This document shows, one piece after another, positions 1 through 64,000 of a DNA stretch of 64,000 bases. Positions within the stretch are counted from its first letter, which is position 1, and every line of letters starts with the position of its first letter. The DNA is from Providencia huaxiensis (GTDB taxonomy: Bacteria > Pseudomonadota > Gammaproteobacteria > Enterobacterales > Enterobacteriaceae). The translations under genes were made by a program, and so were the position numbers. The stretch spans positions 2,170,001 through 2,234,000 of the forward strand of contig NZ_CP031123.2 in the NCBI RefSeq assembly GCF_002843235.3, in the 5' to 3' direction. The notes under the pieces were generated by a model, which saw only the letters and a program-made list of their open reading frames with translations, was not told the origin of the DNA and made no database searches.

Positions 1-198
1 GTGGGTAAATACCCCTGCCACACCAAGAACAAAAGATTCGCCAATATTCGATTTCAAGAACAAATACGCTAATGCAATTTGAATAACGAGCAGTTGAACA
101 ACATAGCGAGGACGGATCCCTCTACGGTTACTACTAGCTAAAATGGCAAGAGCTGCGATTACAACTAAAGATAAAACGAAATGCAGGATCGAGGTCAT
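1..198 (-). CDS. nupC: NupC-family nucleoside:cation symporter, N-terminal fragment (cut by window edge)
   Basis: The reading frame is open from the ATG at 196-198 to the window edge and gives 66 residues beginning MTSILHFVLSLVVIAAL. This resembles the start of E. coli NupC: a first membrane helix, a short basic loop (SSNRRGIRPRY) and a second hydrophobic helix. NupC proteins are inner-membrane concentrative nucleoside transporters driven by protons. A good GGAG ribosome binding site lies just upstream of the ATG. A near-perfect CRP site sits about 70 bases upstream, as expected for a catabolite-controlled nucleoside transporter. The rest of the gene is outside the window, so a NupC paralogue such as NupX cannot be excluded. 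Confidence 0.75.
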   Translation of the reverse strand, partial: MTSILHFVLSLVVIAALAILASSNRRGIRPRYVVQLLVIQIALAYLFLKSNIGESFVLGVAGVFTH

Positions 199-264
199 AT
201 GCGACTCCAACAAATTTAAGAATCAGTCTATGGTGCATATTCTATGTAATAGGTAACATTTAAA

Positions 265-280
265 TGAGATGGACGTCACA
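265..280. promoter_or_regulatory. CRP-cAMP binding site upstream of nupC
   Basis: The bases read TGAGA-N6-TCACA against the CRP consensus TGTGA-N6-TCACA, matching 9 of 10 half-site positions. It lies about 70 bases upstream of the nupC start codon, and E. coli nupC is known to be CRP/CytR controlled. Binding is inferred from the motif and its position. Confidence 0.65.
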
Positions 281-427
281 TTAATATGAAAGCTTACTAG
301 GTGTATTTTGCAAAAAGAAGAAGGCGATCACGTTTCAACGATAACAATTCCTACCATTCGCTTTTTTTGCACAGAAATTTTACTGAGAATTTAAGTTAAG
401 ACTTACAACAACCTGCGTATAAAATTG

Positions 428-450
428 TTGCCTACAGAGATTGTAGGCAA
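428..450 (-). terminator. Hairpin downstream of ligA
   Basis: A perfect 9-bp stem (TTGCCTACA / TGTAGGCAA) with a 5-base loop lies 25 bases beyond the ligA stop. On the minus strand it is followed by a short T-containing stretch (ACAATTTT), so it is a plausible but modest intrinsic terminator. Confidence 0.55.
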
Positions 451-474
451 CTAAGCCAAATTGAATATAGTTCA

Positions 475-2533
<2,059 letters not shown>

Positions 2534-2550
2534 CTTTGTTTAATGTTTAT

Positions 2551-3552
2551 TTAACTTAATGTGTTTCTAATTCGAGCATGATACACCTCTATTTTTTGAG
2601 GTGTCAGCATTTTGCGTTCGTCATCAAGAACGACGCCTCCCGCATCTGATGCGATACGTTGAGCGGCTTGTAACATCAGTTTGAAATTTTGCCCTGCATC
2701 ACCATAAGACGGTACCATCATAAACATGGAAACCCCTGGCGTACTAAAGTCAGCCATTGTCTCAGGGTCAAATGAGCCCGGTTTCACCATGTTAGCCAGG
2801 CTAAACAGCACTGGTCCCGTACCCGACGGATTTACATGACGGTGGAATATTTTCATTTCCCCGAATTGGAAACCAGCTTGTAAAATACTTTGCAGTAATA
2901 ACTCACCTTGCAGTTCTTGTCCTTGATGAGCGGCTACGTGAAGTACCAGAACTGTCTCCTTGCTACTTGTTGTAGCAGGAGCTTCCTGCGGCTCAGCTTT
3001 CTTCTCAATATGCTGCGTCTCTTGTTCATAGGTGCTCGGCTGAGGCTCTTCTCTTAATTTAGTTGAATCAATATGTGGTTCAGCGGCAATACCCGTAACC
3101 GGCTGAGTACGAATTTCAGGCTCTATTGCCACTTCCTCACTCATGTTAATGGTGAGTTGCTCAGGTACATGAACAGGTTCAGTACGTTGATGCGGCGTAG
3201 GTTCATTATGAACTGGCGGTTTAGCCTCTGGCTCCCTATTCATAATAATGTCAGGTTCAACCGACACCTGTGGCTGTATATTAGGTTCAACTGGAGACTC
3301 ATTTTTTACCGGATATACAGGCTCAGTTGCAGCCGGATGAACAGGCGCCTGCTGAGTAGGTTGATTTTCAGTAAATAATGCAGAATCATCATATTCTGAT
3401 GAGTTCTCTTGCATATCGTTCTTTCTACGTTTTACGGGTCTGTCGCGAAATAACTTTGAGCGCTCTTTACGGCTGGTCCATAAACCATGCAGTAATAAAG
3501 CGACAATCGCTATCGCACCTACGACCACTAATATCAGACGCAAATCCTGCAT
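2551..3552 (-). CDS. zipA: Cell division protein ZipA
   Basis: ZipA is an inner-membrane anchor that binds the C-terminal tail of FtsZ and stabilises the Z ring. The 333-residue protein (E. coli 328) has one N-terminal membrane helix (residues about 5-24, N-terminus outside) and a basic stop segment ([17 protein letters not shown]). A long P/E/Q-rich linker follows to about residue 190, then the folded FtsZ-binding domain starting near [12 protein letters not shown]. The repetitive PEP/PVH linker is typical of the family and varies in length. It is divergent from cysZ with a 218-base shared upstream region, the same arrangement as in E. coli. Confidence 0.96.
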
Positions 3553-3770
3553 CGCTGCTATCTCTAGTTGATGAATGATAATGCCAACACGGCGGAAACT
3601 ACCTTAAGATTATTTCTCAATTGCTCTAAGTGCAACCCCCAGAACGATTTTCTTACAAGAAAGAGAATATTCCGCTTTCATTTGCTGCTTTTTTAAGCGA
3701 ATAATGGCTAGTCAGCCTAATTTCATATCTATATGATACATGGTCAACCGAAAAGGAGAGAACAAGAAGT

Positions 3771-4535
3771 ATGACCCAATCGACATTTTCGACACAAAAA
3801 GACCATTCTGGTTTTTATTATTTTACACAAGGCTGGAGATTAATCACTCGTCCCGGTATCAAACGTTTTGTTATTTTGCCCCTATTAGCCAATATTTTAT
3901 TCTTAGGCGGCGCATTTTGGTGGTTATATACCAAGCTTGGTGGCTGGATTGACCAAGTAATGGGTTACATTCCTGACTGGCTACAATGGCTCGATTATGT
4001 TATTTGGCCAATCGCTGTTATCTCAATACTGCTCGTGTTTACTTATTTTTTTAGTACGATAGCCAATATTATCGCGGCACCTTTTAACGGCTGGCTATCA
4101 GAAAAACTCGAAGCGGAGCTAACAGGTAAACCGTCGCCAGATACTGGCGTCGCGGAGTTATTAAAAGATGTTCCTCGCATGATAAAACGCGAGTTTGTCC
4201 GAATCGGTTACTACTTACCTCGCGCTATTGGGTTACTGATCTTATTTTTCATACCCGGTATTGGCCAAACCGTCGCCCCCGTACTGTGGTTTTTATTTGG
4301 TGCTTGGATGATGTCAATCCAATATTGCGATTACCCGTTTGATAACCACCGTGTTGGCTTCGGCGAAATGAAGCAAGCACTTGCCAAAGAACGGATGAGA
4401 AACGTTCAATTTGGTGGCGTTATCAGCCTGTTAATGATGGTCCCTTTTGTCAACTTAGTGATCATGCCTGTTGCAGTTTGTGGTGCAACATTGATGTGGG
4501 TTGACCGGTATCGTGAGCGTTACGCACGCTACTAA
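3771..4535 (+). CDS. cysZ: Sulfate transporter CysZ
   Basis: CysZ is an inner-membrane sulfate permease that supplies cysteine synthesis and is inhibited by sulfite. The 254-residue product (E. coli 253) has long hydrophobic segments near residues 28-52, 68-98, 145-185 and 205-230, and the family-typical [17 protein letters not shown] start. A GGAG ribosome binding site lies at about 3755. A separate strong hairpin terminator follows, so cysZ is probably not co-transcribed with cysK. The location between zipA and cysK is as in E. coli. Confidence 0.93.
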
Positions 4536-4562
4536 TCTATTAATCATTGTCTATTAATCAGT

Positions 4563-4589
4563 GCGCAGGTTTACCGCCTGCGCTCTTTT
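4563..4589 (+). terminator. Intrinsic terminator of cysZ
   Basis: GCGCAGG / CCTGCGC stem with a 7-base loop, followed by TCTTTTA, located 28 bases after the cysZ stop. Confidence 0.75.
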
Positions 4590-4774
4590 ATTGACTTATT
4601 TTTGTTACACTATAATCATTCTTTAGAATTATTAGTTCTAAAATAACATTTCGTTATAAGCTTATTCTCAAATCATATTTGCATTAATCTGTTCTTAACG
4701 TATGTTGAATCCATCTCATTATTTTTAATTAATACCGATTACATTACTGGCTAACCGATTTTTAAGGATATCCC

Positions 4775-5728
4775 ATGAGCAAAATTTATGATGATAACTC
4801 GTTGACCATTGGCCACACCCCACTTGTCCGATTAAAGCATTTTGGTAATGGCAATATTTTAGCAAAAGTGGAATCTCGCAACCCAAGCTTCAGTGTTAAG
4901 TGCCGTATTGGTGCGAACATGATTTGGGACGCAGAGAAAAAAGGTATCCTAAACAAAGACAAAGAATTAGTTGAGCCAACCAGTGGTAATACAGGGATCG
5001 CTTTAGCCTATGTCGCTGCGGCAAGAGGTTATAAGTTGACCTTAACCATGCCTGAAACGATGAGTATTGAACGTCGTAAACTGCTCAAAGCACTGGGCGC
5101 CAACCTCGTTTTAACCGAGGGGGCAAAAGGTATGAAAGGTGCGATAGCTAAAGCTGAAGAAATAGTGAATAGCAACCCTAAGAAATACCTATTACTTCAA
5201 CAGTTTAATAATCCAGCAAACCCTGAAATTCATGAAAAAACCACAGGGCCTGAAATTTGGGAAGATACTGACGGCAATGTCGACGTTGTGGTTGCTGGTG
5301 TCGGTACAGGTGGGACAATTACAGGGATTGCAAAGTACCTGAAAAACACCAAAGGCAAAGATGTGACTATCGTAGCTGTTGAGCCAGAAACCTCACCCGT
5401 TATCACACAAGCCTTAGCAGGTGAAGAAATTAAACCAGGACCACATAAGATCCAAGGGATCGGAGCTGGGTTTATTCCGGGTAACTTAGATTTAAAATTA
5501 CTCGATAAAGTCATTCAAATCAGCGATGACGAAGCCATCAAAACTGCTCGTGAACTAATGGAAAAAGAAGGCATTCTGGCGGGTATTTCATCAGGCGCGG
5601 CTATTGCTGCTGCCACTCAAATTGCCGCAGACCCTGCCTATAAAGGTAAAAATATCGTCGTTATTTTACCTTCTTCAGGTGAGCGTTATTTGTCTACAGC
5701 CCTATTTGCTGACATCTCCGCTGAGTAA
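4775..5728 (+). CDS. cysK: Cysteine synthase A (O-acetylserine sulfhydrylase A)
   Basis: CysK is a PLP enzyme that makes L-cysteine from O-acetylserine and sulfide. The protein is 317 residues (E. coli 323). The PLP lysine is K42 in the segment [11 protein letters not shown]. The substrate loop TSGNTG, the phosphate-binding GTGGT and the SSGAAIAAA segment are all present. An AAGGA ribosome binding site precedes the ATG. In enteric bacteria cysK is activated by CysB with acetylserine. The 239 bases upstream are AT-rich and would hold that site, but I cannot place it precisely. CysK also forms the cysteine synthase complex with CysE. Confidence 0.97.
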
Positions 5729-33671: not shown

Positions 33672-34616
33672 TTAGGCTTCAGGTAACTTCAATTTTGCCG
33701 GACGTTTCGCTTTGATGAAGCGGCTTAAATCAACGGCATTACCTTGGAACTGTACAGTGACATTTGCTGGTGCACCGATGTTCAGACGATAAGGCTGCGG
33801 GCCATCAAGCTCCAGCTTATCGCCATTATTTTTGGTGCCACTGAATAAGATTTTATTATTCGCGTCACGAATTTCTAACCAGCACTGGCCAGTAAAGTTT
33901 AAGACCAAAGCTTGGCTGCTAACAGCAACAGGGTCAGTCGTTTCTGTGTTTTGTGTTCTATCTAATGCAACAGAAGATTGCGGTGCATTAGGTAATGGAA
34001 TGGTTCTGACAGGCTCAGTAATCGGGTCTGTGGTTAATACAGGCTCTTGAACTTGTAATTCAAGCGCATTTTCCTGTGCGGCAGGGGCAGTGTCAGTTGA
34101 GACAATTTCTGTTGAAGTCGACAATTCAACCGGTGTTGTGCTGTTATTTTGCTGAGACAAAATCAAATCATTTTGATTTGCAATTGAAACTAGCTCATTT
34201 TTCTGTGCGTTATGATCTTGCCACCACCACACACCAACCATTGCAATCAGCACAATCACAATCAACCACGTCAGTTTCATTAGCCAACCTTCACGCTTTT
34301 TACGTTTTTTCCCTAAAGAATAGCTTTGCATAGGAGAAACTTTGGCTAATGTGACAGGTTCTTCCGTTTTCAAATACGTTTTTAATTCGTTTTCTGATAT
34401 GCCGACCATTCGAGCATAAAGGCGAATATAACCACGTAAAAATGTCGGTTCTACACCAGCGGGAGCAATATCTTGTTCTATCTCTTTTACCGTACTGATT
34501 TTAAGGCATAATCGTTCTGCAACAATATCTTGGGTTAGCCCCATGCGCTCACGTGCTTGCGTCAATAATTGTCCGACTGTCGTCGTAGTCTGTTCGGTAT
34601 TATTTTCGATAGTCAT
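33672..34616 (-). CDS. rodZ: Cytoskeletal protein RodZ
   Basis: RodZ anchors MreB filaments to the inner membrane and sets rod shape. The 314-residue protein has an N-terminal helix-turn-helix domain of about 90 residues (LTQARERMGLTQDIVAERLCL ... GYIRLYARMVG), a basic stretch KKRKKREG, and one membrane helix near residues 113-132 (LTWLIVIVLIAMVGVWWW). A T/Q/P-rich periplasmic linker and a C-terminal beta domain (LVLNFTGQCWLEIRDANNK) complete it. Position between rlmN and ispG is as in E. coli. Confidence 0.94.
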   Translation of the reverse strand: MTIENNTEQTTTTVGQLLTQARERMGLTQDIVAERLCLKISTVKEIEQDIAPAGVEPTFLRGYIRLYARMVGISENELKTYLKTEEPVTLAKVSPMQSYSLGKKRKKREGWLMKLTWLIVIVLIAMVGVWWWQDHNAQKNELVSIANQNDLILSQQNNSTTPVELSTSTEIVSTDTAPAAQENALELQVQEPVLTTDPITEPVRTIPLPNAPQSSVALDRTQNTETTDPVAVSSQALVLNFTGQCWLEIRDANNKILFSGTKNNGDKLELDGPQPYRLNIGAPANVTVQFQGNAVDLSRFIKAKRPAKLKLPEA

Positions 34617-54911: not shown

Positions 54912-55928
54912 TTAAAATAAGATAACACCTTTAATTAGCTCACGGTTATTAATCACGTCTTGCTCATAACTATCACCAATAGAATTAAAATCAAATTGAT
55001 GAGTTAGCATCATTTCACTCGCGAGTTTCCCTTCCGCCATCAACCTTGCAACTTTATTAAAATCTTCAAGCGTTGCATTACGACTTCCCATCATTGTTGT
55101 TTCTTTCTTATGAAAATCAGGGTCTGGAAACGATAAATTACCTTTAAATAGCCCAACAAACACTATCAAGCCGCCATGACGAATTAAATTCACTGCAGTG
55201 TTCATTGCGTGTTGGTTCCCCGTTGCATCAATGACTTTCTCTGCAAGCATGCCTGAAAAATGGCTTTCAATACTTGATAAGTAGTTTTCAGCCGCTGGGT
55301 CACACGTTTTTAAACCTAATACCTTTTCAACATGTTGGCGACGTGCCTCACTGGTATCAGCAACTAATACGTTAGCACCGTCCGCTTTAGCAATCGCAGC
55401 GACACCAAGCCCTATCGGACCCGCCCCTACGACTAGAACAGTATCTTGAGGCTTAACTTGTGCACGCCTCACGGCATGAGCACTAATCGAAAAAGGTTCA
55501 ATTAACGCCCCATCAATATCAGTAACGGTATCCGCAATGGCTAACACATTGTTTTGTGGGACGTTTAAGAACTCACAAAAACCACCATCTTCATGAACAC
55601 CAATCACCGAAATTTTTTCACAGCAATTTGTTTTACCACTTTTGCAAGCCCCACACTCATAGCAAGCCACATAAGGCATCACGGCAACACGTTGCCCTAC
55701 TTTCCATTGAGTGACATCAGAACCAACCTCACAAATAGTTCCAGAAATTTCATGGCCTAATACACGTGGATACTGGAAAAATGGCTGATTTCCTCCCCAT
55801 GCATGAATATCAGTTCCACATATTCCAACTGCATGTATTTTTATTTTTACGTGCCCAACTTGAGCTGTAGGTTCAGCGACTTCTTGGTAGACTAATTTTT
55901 TAGGTTCCTGGCAAATCAATTGTTTCAT
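54912..55928 (-). CDS. lgoD: LgoD-like zinc alcohol dehydrogenase (L-galactonate 5-dehydrogenase type)
   Basis: The 338-residue medium-chain dehydrogenase resembles E. coli LgoD (YjjN), which oxidises L-galactonate to D-tagaturonate with NAD+. Nearly identical segments include GICGTDIHAWGGNQPFF, RVLGHE, KVIDATGNQHAMN and HKKETTMMGSRNAT. The structural zinc cysteines are in CYECGACKSGKTNCCEK, and the NAD fold has VVGAGPIGLG. The ATG at 55926-55928 has a perfect GGAGG site. It is divergent from an LgoR-like regulator and close to uxaB-like and TRAP genes. The precise substrate is inferred from similarity recalled, not tested. Confidence 0.85.
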   Translation of the reverse strand: MKQLICQEPKKLVYQEVAEPTAQVGHVKIKIHAVGICGTDIHAWGGNQPFFQYPRVLGHEISGTICEVGSDVTQWKVGQRVAVMPYVACYECGACKSGKTNCCEKISVIGVHEDGGFCEFLNVPQNNVLAIADTVTDIDGALIEPFSISAHAVRRAQVKPQDTVLVVGAGPIGLGVAAIAKADGANVLVADTSEARRQHVEKVLGLKTCDPAAENYLSSIESHFSGMLAEKVIDATGNQHAMNTAVNLIRHGGLIVFVGLFKGNLSFPDPDFHKKETTMMGSRNATLEDFNKVARLMAEGKLASEMMLTHQFDFNSIGDSYEQDVINNRELIKGVILF

Positions 55929-56012
55929 GTTTTCCTCCATCAATTTATCTGTCTTTTTTAATTTAAAAAACATAGACTAGATACTTAGCAACCAAATTTT
56001 GTGATTAAATGT

Positions 56013-56034
56013 TTTTAAATCGGTTTTAAATCGG
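56013..56034. promoter_or_regulatory. Tandem 11-bp repeat, candidate LgoR operator
   Basis: TTTTAAATCGG occurs twice head to tail in the 143-base region between the divergent lgoD- and lgoR-like genes. Its place suggests a regulator site, but no consensus is known to me. Confidence 0.35.
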
Positions 56035-56071
56035 TCTTTAAAGAATAAAAAACAGCTTAAGGGGCATTTAA

Positions 56072-56977
56072 ATGGTAAGGAGTAAAAATATACGTTATGG
56101 GTCAATTAACGAATTTTTAGATGCGATTCATAAAAATTTATTAACGTCTCCCTTCCCATCACAATCTTCTTTAGCGGAAATGTTTAATATCAGTCGAACC
56201 ACCGTTAGACATACCCTTGAATATTTACTAGAAAAGAAAATCATTGAAAAACAAGGGAATGAATACCATGTCATTCGCTATCCCAATAAAACTGATTTTT
56301 TCCCAGTTGAGTCAAGCCTTCCAGATCAACAAATCGTCTTATTCGAAAAAGCGTTTTACCAAATGATAAAACGCAAAGAGTTGATGCCTGGAGATACTTT
56401 TACTGAGTTACAATTGGCGAAAAAAAGCCATGTGAGCTCTAGCGTTGTCCGAGAGTTTTTAGTGGAGTTTTCTCGTTATGGGTTAATTAAAAACACCCAC
56501 CGAGGAAATTGGCATATGATGAAGTTTTCACGTGAATATGCAGAAAAACTTTTTGAGTTCAGAGAATTACTGGAAACCAACGCCCTTACTCACTTTTTAA
56601 ATTTACCCGCAGATGACCATCGTTGGATTTTAGCGAAAGAGCTATTACTCAAGCATAGAACACTGCGCGAAACGGTGACTATCAATTACCGCGACTTTTC
56701 CCAACTCGATTATGAGCTACATAGCCTTATTTTATCGGGTGCCAACAACCCATTTTTTAATCAGTCTCTTGAGATCATCACTGTGATATTTCACTTTCAA
56801 TACCAGTGGGATGAATCTGACTTAAAAGAAAGAAATGTACTGGCAATTGAAGAACATATGACCATTTTAAGTGCTTTAATTAGCCGTAATGACATTGTTG
56901 CGATGAATGAACTTCGTCACCATTTAGATACCGCTAAACGAACGATGATCAATTCCATACAACAAACTTATGAATAA
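56072..56977 (+). CDS. lgoR: GntR-family regulator resembling LgoR
   Basis: The 301-residue protein has an N-terminal winged helix (FPSQSSLAEMFNISRTTVRH at about residues 27-46) and a second GntR-like half (LAKKSHVSSSVVREFLVEF). A C-terminal FadR/FCD-type ligand domain follows. It resembles E. coli LgoR (YjjM), whose C-terminus shares QWDESDLK, EEHMTILSALI and a helix ending in SAK/TAKR. In E. coli the regulator activates L-galactonate use. Ligand and direction of control here are inferred. AGGGG lies upstream of the ATG. Confidence 0.85.
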   Translation: MVRSKNIRYGSINEFLDAIHKNLLTSPFPSQSSLAEMFNISRTTVRHTLEYLLEKKIIEKQGNEYHVIRYPNKTDFFPVESSLPDQQIVLFEKAFYQMIKRKELMPGDTFTELQLAKKSHVSSSVVREFLVEFSRYGLIKNTHRGNWHMMKFSREYAEKLFEFRELLETNALTHFLNLPADDHRWILAKELLLKHRTLRETVTINYRDFSQLDYELHSLILSGANNPFFNQSLEIITVIFHFQYQWDESDLKERNVLAIEEHMTILSALISRNDIVAMNELRHHLDTAKRTMINSIQQTYE

Positions 56978-57340
56978 ATAGCACCAACATGCCAGGCCAA
57001 TGGATGGCCAACAACAGTATTTCATTTTCTCGATAATTGTACACATCAAATAAAACCTGAATTTTTTAGTAAAAAAACAACTCAATTATAAAATTATTAT
57101 TATTCAAAATTATAACAACCTAAAATATTTGTTATTTTTCAATTAATTAAAATAAATACTTATTAAACACATTTAATCCATCAATAACCTGTCTGTTTTT
57201 AACTGATAAAAAACACATTAAAAACATCAAAAAGCCATTCATTCCACAAAATTGATTCAATTAATAGTCCATAGAAAAAAATACTTCTAGTCTGAGTCAA
57301 CACCAGATGATTAATACACATAATAACTAGAGGAATGGTC
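56978..57340. other. AT-rich promoter region upstream of the uxaB-like gene
   Basis: No gene is supported in these 363 bases. It should contain the promoter of the uxaB-TRAP operon. The TTTTAAATCGG repeat of the divergent promoter was not found here. Confidence 0.45.
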
Positions 57341-58786
57341 ATGGATTACTTAAATCGACAGTCAATGGCTAACAAGCAATACCCAGAAAGAATTCTACAA
57401 TTCGGAGAAGGTAATTTTCTACGTGCTTTTATCGACTGGATGGTTGACCAACTGAATGAAAAAACAGACTTCAATAGTGGTATTACTATTGTTAGGCCAA
57501 TTGACTCATCACATCCCTCAATTAATCAACAAAATGGACTTTATACCGCCATCACCAGGGGAATTAATGAACAAAAACAAAGCGTTTCTAATATAAGAAT
57601 AATTAATTCCGTTAATCGTGAAATACTTATTTACTCTGAATATGATAAATTTTTAAAGTGTGCAGAAAATCCTGACTTGCAATGGGTATTCTCTAACACA
57701 ACTGAAGCAGGGATCGTATATAAGCACGATGTACGCCTAGAAGATACGCCGGCAAGTAGTTTCCCTGCTAAACTTACGCAATTTTTATTTCACCGCTTTC
57801 AATATTTTAATGGCGATAACAGTAAAGGGTTAATCATCATCCCATGTGAGTTAATTGACTATAATGGCGACAAGTTACAAGAGTTTGTGAATAAACATGC
57901 GCAAGACTGGAAACTTCCCGCAGATTTCATTGCTTGGCTAAATGACAGTAATACGTTTTGTTCTACATTAGTCGATAGAATTGTTACTGGTTATCCAAAA
58001 AATGAAATTGAAAAACTAGAAAAAGAATTAGGTTATAAAGACGATTTTCTCGTCACGGCTGAATATTTCTACTTGTTTGTCATTCAAGGACCAAAAGTAT
58101 TAGAGCAAAAACTAAAACTAAATGAATTACCATTAAATATCAAAGTTGTCGACGATATAAAACCCTATAAAGAGCGTAAAGTGGCAATTTTGAATGGTGC
58201 ACACACTGCGATGGTTCCCGTTGCTTACTTAGCAGGCATTAGAACTGTTCGTGATGTCACTACCAACCCCATTTTCTTATCTTTCATTAAAGATTTAATT
58301 GATAATGAAGTTATTCCTGTTTTATCTCAAAGCCCTTCGGAGCTCGCAGCTTTTGCTTCCGCAGTGATTGACCGTTTTAATAACCCATATATAGAACATG
58401 AATTAATCTCAATTTCGCTTAACTCACTAACTAAATTTAAAACTCGCTTATTACCCCAATTAATCTCTTACGTTAATAAATACAATAAAATCCCTTATTG
58501 CATTTCATTTTCACTTGCTGCGTTGATTGTTTTCTACCGAGGAGAGCAGGCTGGGAAAATCATTCCTTTAAATGATGATGATTATTTACTGGAACGCTTT
58601 AAAGCTTGGAATGAACTCTATGACTCAAATGTAAAACAACTTACTGAAAATGTGCTAGCGATGTCTGATTTATGGGGATTAGACCTCAACGAAATACCGA
58701 AATTACAGGATGATGTGAGCCAGAAAATTACTGAGATTCTGAGTAATGGTACAGAATCAATGCTACGCAAAAAATACGTTTGTTAG
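57341..58786 (+). CDS. uxaB: Altronate oxidoreductase (tagaturonate reductase) UxaB
   Basis: UxaB reduces D-tagaturonate to D-altronate with NADH, the step after LgoD or UxaC. The 481-residue protein (E. coli 483) belongs to the polyol/mannitol long-chain dehydrogenases. It has YPERILQFGEGNFLRAF, VFSNTTEAGI, FCSTLVDRIVTGYP and the catalytic KPYKERKVAILNGAHT segment. AGAGGA lies 6 bases before the ATG at 57341. It heads an operon with the three TRAP genes (52-base gap). UxaA and KDG kinase are not in this window. Confidence 0.92.
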   Translation: MDYLNRQSMANKQYPERILQFGEGNFLRAFIDWMVDQLNEKTDFNSGITIVRPIDSSHPSINQQNGLYTAITRGINEQKQSVSNIRIINSVNREILIYSEYDKFLKCAENPDLQWVFSNTTEAGIVYKHDVRLEDTPASSFPAKLTQFLFHRFQYFNGDNSKGLIIIPCELIDYNGDKLQEFVNKHAQDWKLPADFIAWLNDSNTFCSTLVDRIVTGYPKNEIEKLEKELGYKDDFLVTAEYFYLFVIQGPKVLEQKLKLNELPLNIKVVDDIKPYKERKVAILNGAHTAMVPVAYLAGIRTVRDVTTNPIFLSFIKDLIDNEVIPVLSQSPSELAAFASAVIDRFNNPYIEHELISISLNSLTKFKTRLLPQLISYVNKYNKIPYCISFSLAALIVFYRGEQAGKIIPLNDDDYLLERFKAWNELYDSNVKQLTENVLAMSDLWGLDLNEIPKLQDDVSQKITEILSNGTESMLRKKYVC

Positions 58787-58838
58787 AAAGAAATAATAAA
58801 TACTTAAAACAATAAATCCCCCTACAGGAGATACATTT

Positions 58839-59843
58839 ATGAAACTGAGCACATTAAACGGAAAAACACTTCTTAGCTTAACACTCAGCACAATGCTATT
58901 AATGGGCAGCATGACAGGAGCAGCATTTGCAGATGCTAAATATAAGCTAAAAGTTGCTTATGAAAATAACCCCGGAGAGCCATTTGACTTAGCTATCCAC
59001 GAATGGGCAAAAAAATTCAATGAAAAAACCAATGGTGAAGGTGAATTAATCCCTTATCCAAGTTCGCAATTAGGTTCTAAAAAAGATGTCATCGAACAAA
59101 TGAAGTTAGGTAGCCCATTAATTACTTTAGCGGATGGTGCCTTCTTCTCTGATTATGTACCTGATTACGGCATTATGTTTGGACCATATTTAGGGCTATC
59201 TTATAAAGATATTTTTAAATTGAACGCCTCGCCTTGGTATGGTTCTTTAGAACAACAATTAGATAAAAAAGGCCTTCATGTCGTTTCTAAAGATTGGCTA
59301 TATGGTTCACGCCATATTTTAGCCAATAAAATGATCCAAACCCCAGATGACCTAAAAGGTTTAAAAATTCGCGTTCCCAATAATAAAATTCAAATTAAAG
59401 GTTTAGAGGCAATGGGTGCCACACCCACACCATTACCTTTAGCTGAAGTTTATACTGCACTTAATCTTAAAATTATTGATGGCGCAGAAAACCCAATCCC
59501 AGTGCTATATGGGCAAAAACACCATGAAGCAGCTAAGTTCTTGATCCTAACGGGCCATGTAGAGAACGTGACCAACTTAGTCATGGGCAGTAAAACTTAT
59601 GATAAATTACCCGAAAATATTCAACAGGCTTTAGTTGAATCAGGCAATGAAGCTGGGCAATTCTTAACAGATTTAGTCCTACAACAAGAAAAAGAAATTA
59701 TTGAAAAAATGAAAAGTGAAGGCGTCACGGTTGTTGAAGTAGATAGAGCGCTCTTCAAAGAAAAATCTAAACCTTTCTATAATGAGTTCCCTGAATGGTC
59801 TGCGAACTTATATCAACAAACTCAAGATATTATTAATAATTAA
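58839..59843 (+). CDS. TRAP transporter substrate-binding protein (DctP family)
   Basis: The 334-residue periplasmic protein has a signal peptide cleaved near GAAFA-DAKYK. The DctP fold shows LIPYPSSQLGSKKDVIEQMK, DLKGLKIRVPNN with the conserved carboxylate-binding arginine, and LAEVYTALNLKIIDGAENP. It delivers an organic acid to the DctQM permease. Gene context with uxaB and lgoD suggests a hexonate or hexuronate ligand; this is inference. AGGAG precedes the ATG. The following hairpin suggests its message is in excess. Confidence 0.9.
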   Translation: MKLSTLNGKTLLSLTLSTMLLMGSMTGAAFADAKYKLKVAYENNPGEPFDLAIHEWAKKFNEKTNGEGELIPYPSSQLGSKKDVIEQMKLGSPLITLADGAFFSDYVPDYGIMFGPYLGLSYKDIFKLNASPWYGSLEQQLDKKGLHVVSKDWLYGSRHILANKMIQTPDDLKGLKIRVPNNKIQIKGLEAMGATPTPLPLAEVYTALNLKIIDGAENPIPVLYGQKHHEAAKFLILTGHVENVTNLVMGSKTYDKLPENIQQALVESGNEAGQFLTDLVLQQEKEIIEKMKSEGVTVVEVDRALFKEKSKPFYNEFPEWSANLYQQTQDIINN

Positions 59844-59852
59844 CCCTATGAC

Positions 59853-59878
59853 TTGGCGGTACTCACCGCCAATATTTT
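59853..59878 (+). promoter_or_regulatory. Intraoperonic hairpin after the TRAP binding-protein gene
   Basis: TTGGCGG / CCGCCAA with a 6-base loop and TATTTT tail, 10 bases after the stop. It could act as a partial terminator, raising the binding protein above the permease. Confidence 0.6.
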
Positions 59879-59920
59879 AACAACACAAACGGTTAACTAT
59901 TGTTCTCGCAAGGATCTTTT

Positions 59921-60400
59921 ATGTTTAAATTTCTGGGGAAATTAAGTGATATAGTGGCATCACTTGCCGTTGCCGCTATTGTCATTATTACTATTCTTGC
60001 TGTATTCATGCGCTGGCTTCTTAATGACCCTTTAATGTGGAGTGAGGAAGTTTTAATCATTTGCTACATTTGGTTGGTGATGATTGGTGCAGCATCCGCT
60101 GCGGGTAAAAGAATGCATGTCAGTATTGATGCAATTACCTCTTTATTTCCTGAAAAAGTACAATTAGCTATCGCGGTTATCACTCATATTATGGCCATTA
60201 TTGCTTTATCAATTTTTGGCTATCTAGGATATGAACTCTCGATTATCGCAGAAGATAAAATAACACCAATTATTGGTGTTTCTTATTACTATATCGACCT
60301 TTCTGTTCCTATTGGTGCATCCATCATGGTGTTATTTTCTATTCAACATTTACTGGAAGACATGAGTAAATTAATAAAAGGAGATAAACCATGTCAGTAG
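59921..60400 (+). CDS. TRAP transporter small permease (DctQ family)
   Basis: The 159-residue protein has four hydrophobic helices and the family motif in the first loop (FMRWLLNDPLMWSEEVL). It forms the DctQM membrane complex. The ATG at 59921 with AAGGA 6 bases upstream is preferred; the longer frame starts with TTG. It overlaps the large permease by 10 bases, showing translational coupling. Confidence 0.9.
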   Translation: MFKFLGKLSDIVASLAVAAIVIITILAVFMRWLLNDPLMWSEEVLIICYIWLVMIGAASAAGKRMHVSIDAITSLFPEKVQLAIAVITHIMAIIALSIFGYLGYELSIIAEDKITPIIGVSYYYIDLSVPIGASIMVLFSIQHLLEDMSKLIKGDKPCQ

Positions 60401-61668
60401 TTATCGCCTGTATCGTATTAATATTTTGCTTTTTAATTAATGTTCCTATTTTTTTAAGTGTGCTTATTGCATTGCTCACTTATTTCTTTTCTGTCGGTGA
60501 TATCTCTCCTCTTATTGCCGTGCAGCGCATTATTGGGGCAGGAGAAAATGTCACATTACTCGCAATCCCTTTTTTCATTCTGTTAGGTAACCTTTTGAAT
60601 TACACCGGTATCACTAGCCGAATGTTAAAATTTACTGGCACACTGTCTGGTCACTATCCAGGGGGACTTGCCCAATCTAACGTATTATTAAGTACAATGA
60701 TGGGTGGGCTTTCTGCATCTAACCTTGCTGACTGTGCAATGTTATCTAAAATGCTAGTGCCCGAGATGACCAAATTAGGTTATGGGAAAAGCTTCTCTGC
60801 CGCTGTTACCGCTGCAGGGTCATTAATAACACCTATTATTCCACCCGGTATTGCATTAATCATCTATGGATTTGTTGCTGATGTTTCTATTGGCAAGATG
60901 TTCATGGCCGCGATCATTCCAGGTTTAATGTGCTGCGTTGCTTTAATGTTTGCCATTTATCTTATTGCAAAAAAACGTGGATACAAACCTGCTAGAGATA
61001 AAGCTCCTACATTTGCTGAAGTTTACCAAACAGGTAAAGGGGCGATGTCTGCTTTCCTTTTAGTGCTCGTTATTATTGGTGGAATTCGCTTTGGGATCTT
61101 TACACCGACCGAAGCGGGTGCGATAGCTGTACTTTACGTTATTATAATTGGTACTTTCTTTTATCGCGAAATGAAGTTAAAAGACATTGCCGCCTCATTT
61201 TTAGAAACAGCGCGTTCTACAGCAAGTATTATGTTGATTATCATGACTTGTTCTGCACTAGCTTGGGTATTGACGAATGAGCAAGTGGCACAAGATGTCG
61301 CCAAAATGATGACCAATTTCTCTGACAATCCATATGTTTTCTTAATGATTGTCAATGCTGTGCTCTTAATTTTAGGTATGTTTATTGAAGGTAATGCCGC
61401 AATTATTGTTCTTGTTCCATTATTAATGCCTACGGTAAAACTTTTAGGAATTGACCCTATCCATTTTGGTATTGTCATGATCCTTAATTTAGCTATCGGC
61501 TGTTTAACACCGCCAATGGGAACAGTCATGTTTGTTGCCACATCGATTACTGGTGTACGTATTTCTGATTTTATTCGTGAAGTTATGCCATTATTCTTAA
61601 CATTAATTATCGTATTACTCTTAGTCACTTTTATGCCTGTATTTACGACCTTCCTGCCAAGCTTATAA
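60391..61668 (+). CDS. TRAP transporter large permease (DctM family)
   Basis: The 425-residue protein has about twelve membrane helices and conserved DctM segments: AIPFFILLGNLLN, GGLSASNLADCAML, AGSLITPIIPPGIALIIYG and GCLTPPMGTVMFVA. It is the sodium-coupled translocation subunit. GGAG is placed 7 bases before the ATG, inside the end of the small permease gene. It ends the operon, followed by a strong hairpin. Confidence 0.93.
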   Translation: MSVVIACIVLIFCFLINVPIFLSVLIALLTYFFSVGDISPLIAVQRIIGAGENVTLLAIPFFILLGNLLNYTGITSRMLKFTGTLSGHYPGGLAQSNVLLSTMMGGLSASNLADCAMLSKMLVPEMTKLGYGKSFSAAVTAAGSLITPIIPPGIALIIYGFVADVSIGKMFMAAIIPGLMCCVALMFAIYLIAKKRGYKPARDKAPTFAEVYQTGKGAMSAFLLVLVIIGGIRFGIFTPTEAGAIAVLYVIIIGTFFYREMKLKDIAASFLETARSTASIMLIIMTCSALAWVLTNEQVAQDVAKMMTNFSDNPYVFLMIVNAVLLILGMFIEGNAAIIVLVPLLMPTVKLLGIDPIHFGIVMILNLAIGCLTPPMGTVMFVATSITGVRISDFIREVMPLFLTLIIVLLLVTFMPVFTTFLPSL

Positions 61669-61684
61669 GATAAGATTATATCTC

Positions 61685-61720
61685 AATGGCAAGTCATTAA
61701 CTATGACTTGCCATTTTATT
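61685..61720 (+). terminator. Intrinsic terminator of the TRAP operon
   Basis: AATGGCAAGTCAT / ATGACTTGCCATT, a 13-bp stem with a 5-base loop and T-rich tail, 17 bases after the stop. Confidence 0.88.
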
Positions 61721-62087
61721 ATCAATTAATTTTTTATAAATTAAATTTTATTTGATCCCACAAATTAATGTAACTTTTGTTTATTGTTAAGTTAATTTAT
61801 CTTTATCCTTGTCACAATAACATGCACAACAAAAAATACTCAAAAAGATAAATTACTGATCATCAAAAAATTACACTTATTACGAGTAATATTGAAATAA
61901 TTAGAAAAACAATATCACATTAAATTCATATATATAAAAAAGACATTAATCTCATTAAATATTTTTTTGACTTTTAATTTGAAAAAAATATATTTTATAT
62001 CTAGCATAAAATAACACAGCTAATTTACATTCGGCTGTTAATCAAAGTTATATCACTTTATTTTACTTTGACCTTATGGGGTTAATT
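61721..62087. other. Very AT-rich region upstream of the second fimbrial locus
   Basis: No gene supported in about 370 bases. It likely carries the fimbrial promoter. Confidence 0.45.
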
Positions 62088-62678
62088 ATGTCTAGATATA
62101 TACTACCTCTGTCTTTACTTTCGTTATCTGTTATATCAGGTTCAGCACTTGCAATAACTAATAGTGCTGGAGGAATTATTTCAATTTCTGGAGCAATAAG
62201 CGATACAACTTGTACTATTAATGGCGGAAATAGTGCCGATATGACTGTTGTTCTTGACCCAATAACCGTAACAGATGCAGGGACCACTGCTGCGACGGTT
62301 ATTTCTAAAAATCAAAAACAATTTTCTTTAACTTTCTCTGATTGCGCACCTGCGAGCACTCCTGTAAGTAATCTGAAATTACACTTTTATTCATCAAGTA
62401 ATATTTCCCCTTCCGGTTTGTATTTAGTGAATACTTCCGTCAATGAAAATGATGCTTCCGTTGCTAAAAATGTTGGATTTAGTTTATCTAAAACCAGCAC
62501 TCCAACAACCGCAATTCCACTCAATGTGGCCTTTGATACTAACCTTACAGGGGCTGACACTGGTGGTGCAACAGGAGCTACACTCAATTTAATTGCCAGT
62601 TATTATAAAACTAATGCAACTGCTGCCAAAGTCGGTCTTTTACAATCAAATGTAATATATACAGTTTCCTATTTATAA
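62088..62678 (+). CDS. Fimbrial subunit of the second chaperone-usher locus
   Basis: The 196-residue protein has a signal peptide ending near SGSALA and a fimbrial-subunit body (ISGAISDTTCTINGG) with a second cysteine in FSDCAP. It ends VIYTVSYL, with an aromatic penultimate region for chaperone recognition. The ATG at 62088 with GGGG upstream is preferred to one four codons earlier. It is the first gene of a pilin-chaperone-usher set that runs past the window edge. Confidence 0.85.
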   Translation: MSRYILPLSLLSLSVISGSALAITNSAGGIISISGAISDTTCTINGGNSADMTVVLDPITVTDAGTTAATVISKNQKQFSLTFSDCAPASTPVSNLKLHFYSSSNISPSGLYLVNTSVNENDASVAKNVGFSLSKTSTPTTAIPLNVAFDTNLTGADTGGATGATLNLIASYYKTNATAAKVGLLQSNVIYTVSYL

Positions 62679-62687
62679 TTATGACTT

Positions 62688-62711
62688 AGCCAGGCTTTTA
62701 TTAGCCTGGCT
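62688..62711 (+). terminator. Intercistronic hairpin between second pilin and chaperone
   Basis: AGCCAGGC / GCCTGGCT, an 8-bp stem with an 8-base loop and tail TTAAAT, 10 bases after the pilin stop. It parallels the hairpin after the first pilin gene. Confidence 0.7.
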
Positions 62712-62727
62712 TTAAATGGATACTATT

Positions 62728-63417
62728 ATGAAAACTCTAGTTTTATTACTCACTATTTTATTTTCGAGCTCAACATTTTCTAATGTTATTATTACAGGCA
62801 CTCGAATTATATATCCTGCTGACGCTGATAGTATTACTGTACAATTAACCAATAATAGCAAAACATCGTCTCTTGTTCAGTCATGGATTGATAACGGTGA
62901 TGAAAGTTCCACACCTGAGAATTCTGAAGCGCCTTTTTATTTATCCCCTCCTATTGTTAAAATTGAAGGTTTACAAGGTCAGCAATTAAAAATAAAAAAA
63001 ATACCCGGAAAACTTCCTGACAATGTTGAAAGTGTATTTTTCTTAAATGTTTTAGATATTCCTAAAACTCCAGAATCTGCTAAAGGCAAGAATGCAATTC
63101 AGCTAGCCACACGCTCACGAATTAAAATTTTTTATCGTCCTATTGGGCTAACCGAATCCTCCGATGAAATAATTAATCATGCGAGCTACCAGATTAAAAA
63201 TAATAACATATTAGTTAAAAATAACTCGCAATACCATTTAACTATTGCAGCTATCACACCATCGGACGATAAAAATAATTCATTAATTGATTCTGCGATG
63301 ATTGCCCCTATGTCTGAAAAAGAATTACCTATTAAAGGAACAATGAAAAACCACGATCTTATTTTAATGTATGTGGATGACTATGGTGTTTTCAAATCTA
63401 AAAACATTAAACTTTAA
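62728..63417 (+). CDS. Periplasmic fimbrial chaperone (PapD family), second locus
   Basis: The 229-residue protein has a signal peptide (MKTLVLLLTILFSSSTFS) and the PapD motifs ITGTRIIYPAD, FFLNVLDIP and RIKIFYRPIGL. It would deliver the upstream pilin to the usher. The ATG at 62728 is used because the signal peptide starts there. The order pilin-chaperone-usher differs from the first locus, so the two loci are of different lineages. Confidence 0.9.
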   Translation: MKTLVLLLTILFSSSTFSNVIITGTRIIYPADADSITVQLTNNSKTSSLVQSWIDNGDESSTPENSEAPFYLSPPIVKIEGLQGQQLKIKKIPGKLPDNVESVFFLNVLDIPKTPESAKGKNAIQLATRSRIKIFYRPIGLTESSDEIINHASYQIKNNNILVKNNSQYHLTIAAITPSDDKNNSLIDSAMIAPMSEKELPIKGTMKNHDLILMYVDDYGVFKSKNIKL

Positions 63418-63431
63418 TAGAAGAAATCATC

Positions 63432-64000
63432 GTGAAAAAAGAAAACTATCTCTACCTCCTAATCTTAATAGGACTACAAAGTTATCAAAAGAACTCAATA
63501 GCGGACGAGTTTGAGACTTCCCTATTGGTAGGTAAATCTGCACAAGGAGATATTTCACGATTCTATACCGACAGTAAAATTCCATCAGGTAAACAATTAG
63601 CCGAGCTTTATGTAAATAATAGTTGGAAAGGCCAATTTGAAATTGATATCAATAATGATGGTAAACTGATTAGCCTTGCTGCTGATGATGTGCAGAAATT
63701 AAACCTGAATTTATCTTCTGAGGTGATTGAACAAACCAAACAACAGCCATTTATTCCTATTGATGATTTAGTGGCCAATATAAAATATAAATTCAATATC
63801 AACGACCTACGACTCGATATTACCGTCCCTCAAGTCGCTCTGAAACAACTCGAAGCTAACTATGTTGACCCCAGTCTCTGGAATTATGGCGAACCTGCAA
63901 TTATTTTTTCTTATAATACAAATTATTATAGTTACAAAGAGAAAAAAACTCTAAAACCAGCAGTGACAATTTTTTTGCTACCTTAAATTCAGGCGTTAAT
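63432..64000 (+). pseudogene. Fimbrial usher, frameshifted and cut by the window edge
   Basis: The frame from GTG at 63432 encodes an usher N-terminus (EFETSLLVGKSAQGDISRF, VPQVALKQLEANYVDPSLWN, GEPAIIFSYNTNYYS). It then runs out of frame after the A7 run at 63942-63948 and stops at 63986. In the neighbouring frame the sequence continues KNSKTSSDNFFATLNSGVN, the normal usher continuation before the barrel. One extra A would restore it. This may be a real frameshift, a phase-variable tract or a sequencing error. The rest is outside the window. Confidence 0.8.

Follow-up and report, generated by a model that had tools for sequence, protein, structure and literature searches.

Positions 54912-61668 of a 64,000-nucleotide stretch of Providencia huaxiensis (NZ_CP031123.2, positions 2,170,001 to 2,234,000; "the window") carry six intact genes: lgoD on the reverse strand, then lgoR, uxaB and dctP-dctQ-dctM on the forward strand. 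Sequence comparisons suggest, with a probability of roughly 85%, that this island is an LgoR-controlled module for the import and breakdown of L-galactonate. The importer belongs to the tripartite ATP-independent periplasmic (TRAP) family, whose members are dependent on a substrate-binding protein and coupled to Na+. In the proposed mechanism, DctP would capture L-galactonate in the periplasm and DctQM would carry it inward. By orthology, LgoD would oxidise L-galactonate to D-tagaturonate and UxaB would convert D-tagaturonate to D-altronate. UxaA, KdgK and 2-keto-3-deoxy-6-phosphogluconate (KDPG) aldolase, encoded elsewhere in the genome, would take altronate on to pyruvate and glyceraldehyde 3-phosphate. 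The features of the island are the following.

54912..55928, reverse strand: lgoD, predicted L-galactonate 5-dehydrogenase (by orthology), 338 amino acids; the open frame extends to 55973
56005..56040, forward strand: a pair of predicted LgoR operators in the lgoD/lgoR gap, overlapping and offset by 12 bp; motif scores 22.5 (56005) and 27.1 (56017)
56072..56977, forward strand: lgoR, regulator of the GntR/FadR type, 301 amino acids, whose N-terminus bears an additional winged helix-turn-helix
57208..57231, reverse strand: predicted LgoR operator about 110 bp 5' of uxaB-dctPQM; motif score 19.0
57341..58786, forward strand: uxaB, predicted tagaturonate reductase (by orthology); the open frame starts at 57335
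58839..59843, forward strand: dctP, TRAP solute-binding protein of clade A, 334 amino acids; the sole PF03480 match in the genome
59853..59872, forward strand: hairpin in the dctP/dctQ gap, a terminator-like stem of 8 pairs
59921..60400, forward strand: dctQ, TRAP small permease; open frame from TTG 59900; PF04290 108.6 bits
60391..61668, forward strand: dctM, TRAP large permease, 425 amino acids; PF06808 377.7 bits; TIGR00786 419.8 bits (cut-off 268.45)
61685..61715, forward strand: terminator-like hairpin ending the uxaB-dctPQM unit, a 13-pair stem followed by a T-rich tail

Evidence for common control comes from a predicted operator shared by the enzyme and importer units (56005/56017 and 57208), found with a motif learned on other loci. 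Expectation maximisation on 76 intergenic regions, drawn from 38 LgoT-type loci with no TRAP or Providencia locus among them, yielded the motif. Its 24-column consensus, TTTaCTGTTTTTAATCGGTTTTTA, reaches a score of at least 14 in 34 of 38 lgoD-lgoR regions and 38 of 38 lgoR-lgoT regions, these being the training set itself. Across the window, scores of at least 12 occur only at 56005/56006/56017 and 57208, where first-order Markov sequence would be expected to give 0.2 per 64 kb; 56005 and 56017 are the two best scores. The blocks at 56005-56040 and 57208-57231 are conserved in 7 aligned Providencia records. The motif, as observed, suggests that LgoR acts on direct-repeat operators ahead of both lgoD/lgoR and uxaB-dctPQM. 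Since operators stand before both units, the importer and the enzymes would be under one control. Over 1,412,389 bases of loci, training loci included, matches of at least 14 fall at 121 positions within the 450 bp that precede an lgo, TRAP, LgoT or uxaB gene, and at 4 positions elsewhere, one of which precedes an ATP-binding cassette (ABC) binding-protein gene in an lgo neighbourhood (L109). A pattern taken from the two island sites has 2 perfect matches in the host genome, circular by design, and 7 with one mismatch, while a reversed control pattern gave 6 in all. Two other candidates were dropped: a TCTAGTCT-like string noticed by eye in both intergenic regions proved not to be conserved, and a site at 34377 scoring 19.76 with a 17-column motif lies inside a coding frame and scores 9.4 with the 24-column version, which was the one used.

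Moved along by 11 positions, the motif correlates with itself at 0.75 (a value reached by 2 of 1000 column permutations), while the best inverted shift gives 0.53. As a side idea, the two winged helices of each LgoR chain may read a direct repeat of 11 bp, in place of the palindrome usual for FadR. Suvorova is said to have treated the YjjM regulon in 2011, and the LgoR operator may be in print there. A few other members of FadR/HutC are known to recognise direct repeats (PMC4494728). Our searches, which surveyed part of the matching papers and parts of PMC4494728, found no LgoR/YjjM operator motif.

The first-pass annotation of the window had grouped an LgoD-like dehydrogenase, an LgoR-like regulator and UxaB with a complete TRAP importer, and this grouping was borne out. 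In BLAST comparisons with E. coli K-12, LgoD is 66% identical to LgoD over 339 amino acids (36% to RspB), LgoR 54% identical over 298 and UxaB 56% identical over 480. LgoD has the ADH_N and ADH_zinc_N domains and carries CGTD, GHE, CYECGAC and NCC, the zinc-site motifs of medium-chain dehydrogenases. Its score against the RspB-type model NF007489 (232 bits) is under the cut-off of 376, and in a tree of LgoD proteins it falls within the LgoR-linked set, separate from a group at 53-56% identity. LgoR has PF00392 (GntR) in two stretches plus FCD, and E. coli LgoR is built alike. DctP (PF03480, 238 bits), DctQ and DctM are all above the Pfam cut-offs and form a complete TRAP set in one gene run. 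UxaB scores 678.8 bits with the tagaturonate reductase model NF002969 (cut-off 359) and 101.6 with the fructuronate reductase model (cut-off 603), and it has the motif K282-x-A-x-L-N-G-x-H, numbered from 57335. The starts of lgoD (55928, not 55973), uxaB (57341) and dctQ (59921) were picked by eye from ribosome-binding sites; an AAGGA, also found by eye, stands upstream of the dctQ ATG at 59921.

The type of reductase bears on an alternative in which the system chiefly handles L-gulonate, with LgoD producing fructuronate from it. The host genome encodes UxuA; a 2014 paper by Kuivanen and Richard presents E. coli YjjN (LgoD), in its title, as a means of quantifying L-galactonate as well as L-gulonate; and an L-gulonate TRAP pathway has been predicted and validated in Haemophilus influenzae (PMC5788505). 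That system, GulPQM-GulD, is like the island in combining a TRAP importer, a 5-dehydrogenase and a reductase for an aldonate, but it is described for L-gulonate and the fructuronate/mannonate branch (PMC5788505). The island reductase is of the tagaturonate and not the fructuronate type, and in the P. huaxiensis genome UxuA, an RspAB pair, a major facilitator superfamily (MFS) gene and UxuB form a separate locus, uxuA-regulator-rspA-rspB-MFS-uxuB (L138), that serves the other branch. L-gulonate was rejected as the main substrate on account of this separate locus, and we regard it as very improbable in that role.

The remaining pathway genes lie outside the island in the 4.8-Mb host genome. A UxaA homologue, 71% identical to E. 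coli UxaA, adjoins an ExuR homologue (L051). The only NCBIfam model listed for it is galactarate dehydratase (248 bits, cut-off 731), so its name rests on the 71% identity, NCBIfam giving no altronate-dehydratase call. KdgK (462 bits, NCBIfam cut-off 400) adjoins a KDPG-type aldolase, and a second KDPG-type aldolase is also present. On paper, the route from L-galactonate through tagaturonate, altronate, 2-keto-3-deoxygluconate and KDPG to pyruvate and glyceraldehyde 3-phosphate would be complete. The first-pass annotation's prediction of L-galactonate uptake, oxidation to tagaturonate and reduction to altronate thus gains support from orthology, synteny, operator motifs and pathway content. 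Its "hexuronate" label did not survive. UxaB and UxaA do belong to the E. coli hexuronate pathway, and the ExuR homologue beside uxaA would also suit import of galacturonate or glucuronate by the TRAP. However, the galacturonate entry to the pathway is missing: UxaC (PF02614) has no match in the host genome (PF02614 was found in 7 of 14 control genomes, including E. coli). Six of the 24 genomes in the genus encode UxaC, and only 2 of these are among the 8 that carry the TRAP. Because UxaC was not found, nothing detected ties galacturonate or glucuronate to the island, and hexuronate import, which we rejected, seems hardly credible.

Pairwise BLAST of nine DctP proteins and two PDB fragments separated three TRAP lineages. 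Clade A, comprising the window and Citrobacter (L075) proteins, is 74-77% identical internally and 40-49% identical to other DctPs. Clade B (E. coli L140, L078 and L065) is 73-88% identical within and 69-72% identical to PDB 4OVT, and clade C (L067-L070) is 68-78% identical within and 68-88% identical to PDB 4O8M. All 14 distinct clade-A loci (the window, L009, L011, L057, L060-L062 and L071-L077) have predicted operator sites ahead of both units. In clade C, a site precedes the TRAP or uxaB unit in 4 of 4 loci and is also present at lgoD/lgoR in 3 of 4. For clade B in E. coli, a site scoring 31.8 precedes dctP in 3 of 3 inspected loci (L140, L143 and L144), and none of the three clade-B TRAPs outside lgo loci (L065, L078 and L079) has such a site.

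4OVT and 4O8M have L-fuconate and L-galactonate, respectively, as their ligands. 4OVT is the PDB entry nearest to the island DctP, which could mean that L-fuconate is a genuine second substrate of the TRAP besides L-galactonate. A Chromohalobacter TRAP in an lgoD-uxaA-uxaB locus has reportedly been characterised for both acids (PMC5507952, citing Vetting 2015). The island, to which this search was limited, showed no gene for L-fuconate catabolism, and a role for L-fuconate appears unlikely, if less so than the alternatives above. The island DctP has the N-terminal motif VAYENNPGEP, and the pattern V/I-A-Y-E/G-N-N/Q-P-G-E-P is present in all lgo-linked DctPs compared (window, L075, L140 and L067-L070). 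The pattern is also found in L078, which is not lgo-linked, but not in L065, and it occurs in 25 rows of a 46-row alignment (A1), being common but not universal among relatives.

Automatic annotation calls these proteins "C4-dicarboxylate TRAP transporter", and an E. coli set that avoids lgoT is called siaP/siaT (PMC10769857). These names would fit a sialic-acid or C4-dicarboxylate TRAP that merely lies beside the lgo genes. Against this, SiaP-named chains score at most about 165 bits with the island DctP, compared with 315 for 4OVT; the operator precedes the TRAP unit in every clade-A locus scanned; and the TRAP has repeatedly been exchanged with LgoT at one chromosomal slot, as described below. 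We give this explanation next to no credence.

The first-pass annotation had also proposed that the TRAP takes the place of LgoT, and synteny and the operator motifs agree with this. In E. coli K-12, where the gene order is opgB-lgoD-lgoR-lgoT-tsr-btsT, the lgo genes resemble the island in having LgoD and LgoR orthologues, divergent lgoD/lgoR and the same operator motif (L016), but differ in that the importer is LgoT, annotated as a galactonate:H+ symporter, and that uxaB lies elsewhere, as the annotation had stated. The K-12 lgo slot is the same chromosomal place as the TRAP loci of Citrobacter and Escherichia relatives. The order is opgB-uxaB-lgoD-lgoR-dctPQM-tsr in G597 and opgB-(2 kb unread)-lgoD-lgoR-dctPQM-tsr in G464. 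In the Escherichia-like G744 it is opgB-lgoD(99%)-lgoR-dctPQM-btsT; G687, in the same genus, has lgo genes that are 99% E. coli-like. In E. coli L140 (NZ_CP141089.1, a record labelled plasmid but chromosome-sized), L143 (NZ_AP022222.1) and L144 (NZ_CP031919.1), the order is opgB-lgoD-lgoR-Na+/H+ antiporter-dctPQM-tsr, with a clade-B TRAP replacing lgoT. The DctP of this E. coli slot is 46-48% identical to that of the island. All three loci have an extra operator-like site (21.0) just 3' of lgoR, where the lgoT operator would be. Comparison of L143 with K-12 gives identities of 94-99% for tsr, 72-88% for lgoR and, for lgoD, a rise from 73% to 98%, a profile expected of replacement by recombination between shared flanks. 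In L144 (E. coli O145 FWSEC0002; locus positions 1-5169), hpa (4-hydroxyphenylacetate) genes and not btsT adjoin tsr, so the flank of the slot is itself variable.

Among 5,426 complete E. coli genomes, LgoT was matched in 4,475 (any match) and the tsr-lgoT junction in 4,469, so at most 6 genomes have LgoT only away from tsr. The clade-B TRAP was matched over more than 80% of the query in 858 and by any match in 967, and the tsr-dctM junction was present in 862. To judge from these totals rather than from genome-by-genome overlap, LgoT and the slot TRAP appear practically exclusive in E. coli. The first-pass annotation's statement that E. coli LgoD and LgoR work with LgoT thus fits K-12 but not the species as a whole, given the 862 genomes with a TRAP beside tsr. 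A megablast search with the G744 genes detected no clade-A TRAP in any of the 5,426 genomes. In a tree of 76 LgoD proteins built by a quick method, the importer type changes between TRAP and LgoT at least 5 times, and 4 changes are forced for the close-TRAP label by the starred branches alone. Two further loci, L109 (6424-14312) and L110 (6245-10900), have an ABC binding protein beside lgoD/lgoR and a pectin-related hydrolase, of GH28 type in L109 and GH88 type in L110; a strong operator precedes the ABC gene in L109 only. An ABC importer is thus apparently a further importer kind under LgoR.

It would then be mainly the importer part of the regulon that is exchangeable, its place being taken elsewhere by LgoT (MFS), by either of two further TRAP lineages or, apparently, by an ABC system. 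We think it likely, with somewhat less confidence than for the module itself, that the LgoR regulator, its operators and the enzymes stay in place and mutually unrelated L-galactonate importers (LgoT, TRAP clades A, B and C, and apparently ABC) are swapped, within genera and within E. coli, often at one locus. On this account, which we hold as a whole, avoidance of lgoT would reflect alternative occupancy of the lgoR-tsr slot and not incompatibility or competition of gene products, the "sialic acid" names siaP and siaT would be wrong, and nhaK would accompany the TRAP, which would import Na+ where LgoT does not, and recycle that Na+.

This account bears on published work on the E. coli pangenome. 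In that study lgoT never co-occurs with siaP, siaT and nhaK, the typical sets being 1,882 versus 213 genomes, a pattern treated as avoidance (PMC10769857), and later work building on it calls the alternative gene sets incompatible (PMC12603686). Neither main text contains the word "galactonate", and no mention of a shared locus was seen in either. The nhaK-siaP-siaT-dctM:siaM set of PMC10769857 would be the TRAP of the E. coli lgo slot (L140, L143 and L144), because gene content and exclusivity agree. That set differs from the island in its TRAP lineage, and it was read there as gene-gene avoidance and not as one locus. Slot occupancy offers a simple explanation of the published avoidance between lgoT and siaP/siaT/nhaK.

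Several observations weigh against these interpretations or limit them. The same siaP/siaT/nhaK set is also avoided by mdtM (PMC10769857), a pattern that occupancy of the slot does not by itself account for. No structure has been solved for a clade-A protein; the closest chains in the PDB, 4OVT and 4O8M, are about 48% and 40% identical to the island DctP. Some clade-B TRAPs (L065, L078 and L079) lie away from any lgo locus, so DctP kinship alone does not fix the substrate. TRAP genes away from lgoD or uxaB had been named in advance as evidence against the grouping; for clade A, lgoD and lgoR are found in all 14 distinct loci (about 12 kb away in G628, within 7 kb in the others), but uxaB does not adjoin the TRAP in three, those of Buttiauxella (L011), G464 (L073) and G744 (L076). 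UxaA and KdgK are encoded outside the island, and no operator site of at least 12 was found in 20 kb around uxaA (L051). In clade C, L067 has no site of at least 12 between lgoD and lgoR. The other three matches outside the expected positions are in L123, with a score equal to that of L109, and in L131 and L134, both unannotated. The LgoD tree, besides being quick, has 27 of 73 forks open, and 8 of its 69 LgoR-linked rows, L109 and L110 among them, have neither LgoT nor a TRAP in the fetched stretch. In E. coli, 109 of the 967 clade-B matches are partial or weak and seem to reflect another TRAP, and about 95 of the 5,426 genomes show neither a tsr-lgoT nor a tsr-dctM junction. Lastly, lgoR of G744 (L076, 8343-9238) is 96% identical to E. 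coli LgoR in a 120-residue piece and 81% in a second piece, in two frames; this may mark a recombination point or a frameshift, and the regulator may be broken.

Within the genus, clade-A DctP was found in 8 of 24 genomes and LgoD in 11, all 8 being among the 11 and carrying a close LgoD (83-100% identity). The DctPs of G005 and G008 are 99% and 96% identical to that of the island. With two PF04295 classes split by score, and by BLAST in the host genome, a UxaA-type dehydratase was assigned to 12 of 24, including all 11 with LgoD. The LgoD-bearing Providencia without the TRAP (G007, G016 and G018; L053-L055) have lgoR, uxaB, lgoD and lgoT, the LgoT being 80-82% identical to that of E. coli, so the same genus uses an alternative importer. 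An LgoT-type cluster (MFS, lgoD, uxaB and lgoR) also lies between partition genes and transposases on the P. rettgeri plasmid p12105-NDM (L141, 5270-10512). In G008 (L060, 10274-11547), dctM was matched as two overlapping pieces in different frames and may be frameshifted.

In the family, DctP of at least 74% identity occurs in 8 of 392 genomes (with a partial match in G666), all 8 having LgoD, which overall is present in 63 of 392; this count takes no account of kinship among the genomes. DctP and LgoD lie within 7 kb of each other in seven of the 8, and within about 13 kb in G628. The grouping of lgo and TRAP genes exceeds chance. Three further DctP matches of 43-48% (G383, G451 and G687) are the clade-B proteins outside lgo loci. 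In the order, 21 of 394 genomes match at the limit used, the window's included, and surroundings were fetched for 7 of the 20 others (L064-L070). L067-L070 are clusters of lgoR, lgoD, TRAP, uxaB and uxaA, their DctPs being 40-43% identical to that of the island; L064 has a TRAP, UxaA, a 39% UxaB and a distant dehydrogenase without LgoR; and L066 is a short contig with a TRAP alone. The second LgoD-like group (53-56%) was observed without LgoR in L082 and L130-L135, mostly near UxaB/UxuB-like reductases that are 23-26% identical to the UxaB of E. coli or the window, in two cases with a distant TRAP (31%). This group (L082 and L135) resembles a different E. coli locus, region GR 21, where a TRAP accompanies homologues of YjjN (55%) and UxuB (PMC12928451).

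The island is flanked by suhB on one side and by a fimbrial cluster on the other. The latter (62076-63986) begins right after the island, and matches to its first genes are present in the Providencia loci L009 and L061 but not in L010, L057 or L062. The G+C content of the island is 36.3%, compared with 41.5% in bases 1-54900; stretches of the same size range from 34.3 to 45.8% across the window, so composition alone does not prove recent arrival. Terminator-like sites number 8 in the stretch, versus 4.2 in shuffles.

A TRAP-linked L-galactonate locus is not new as a kind. Such loci, of the form lgoD-uxaA-uxaB (or uxaF)-TRAP (Lgo/Lfo), have been described in Halomonas and in Chromohalobacter salexigens (Csal_1738-1731; PMC5507952). 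Like the island, they have lgoD and altronate-branch enzymes beside a TRAP predicted or reported for L-galactonate/L-fuconate. FucR sites are mentioned for them and, unlike for the island, LgoR is not named in the account consulted. According to the same source, the TRAPs of Halomonas and Chromohalobacter are not orthologous (PMC5507952). Our literature searches turned up no earlier account of an LgoR-type operator shared by TRAP and enzyme genes, of importers being swapped repeatedly, or of the E. coli avoidance pattern explained in this way.

A TRAP lineage annotated only as "C4-dicarboxylate" thereby gains a likely substrate and a likely regulator. The avoidance machine-learned from the E. 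coli pangenome (PMC10769857 and PMC12603686) would become a concrete case of two importers for one nutrient in one chromosomal slot. The competing importers would differ in kind, LgoT being proton-driven and the TRAP being binding-protein-dependent and probably sodium-driven.

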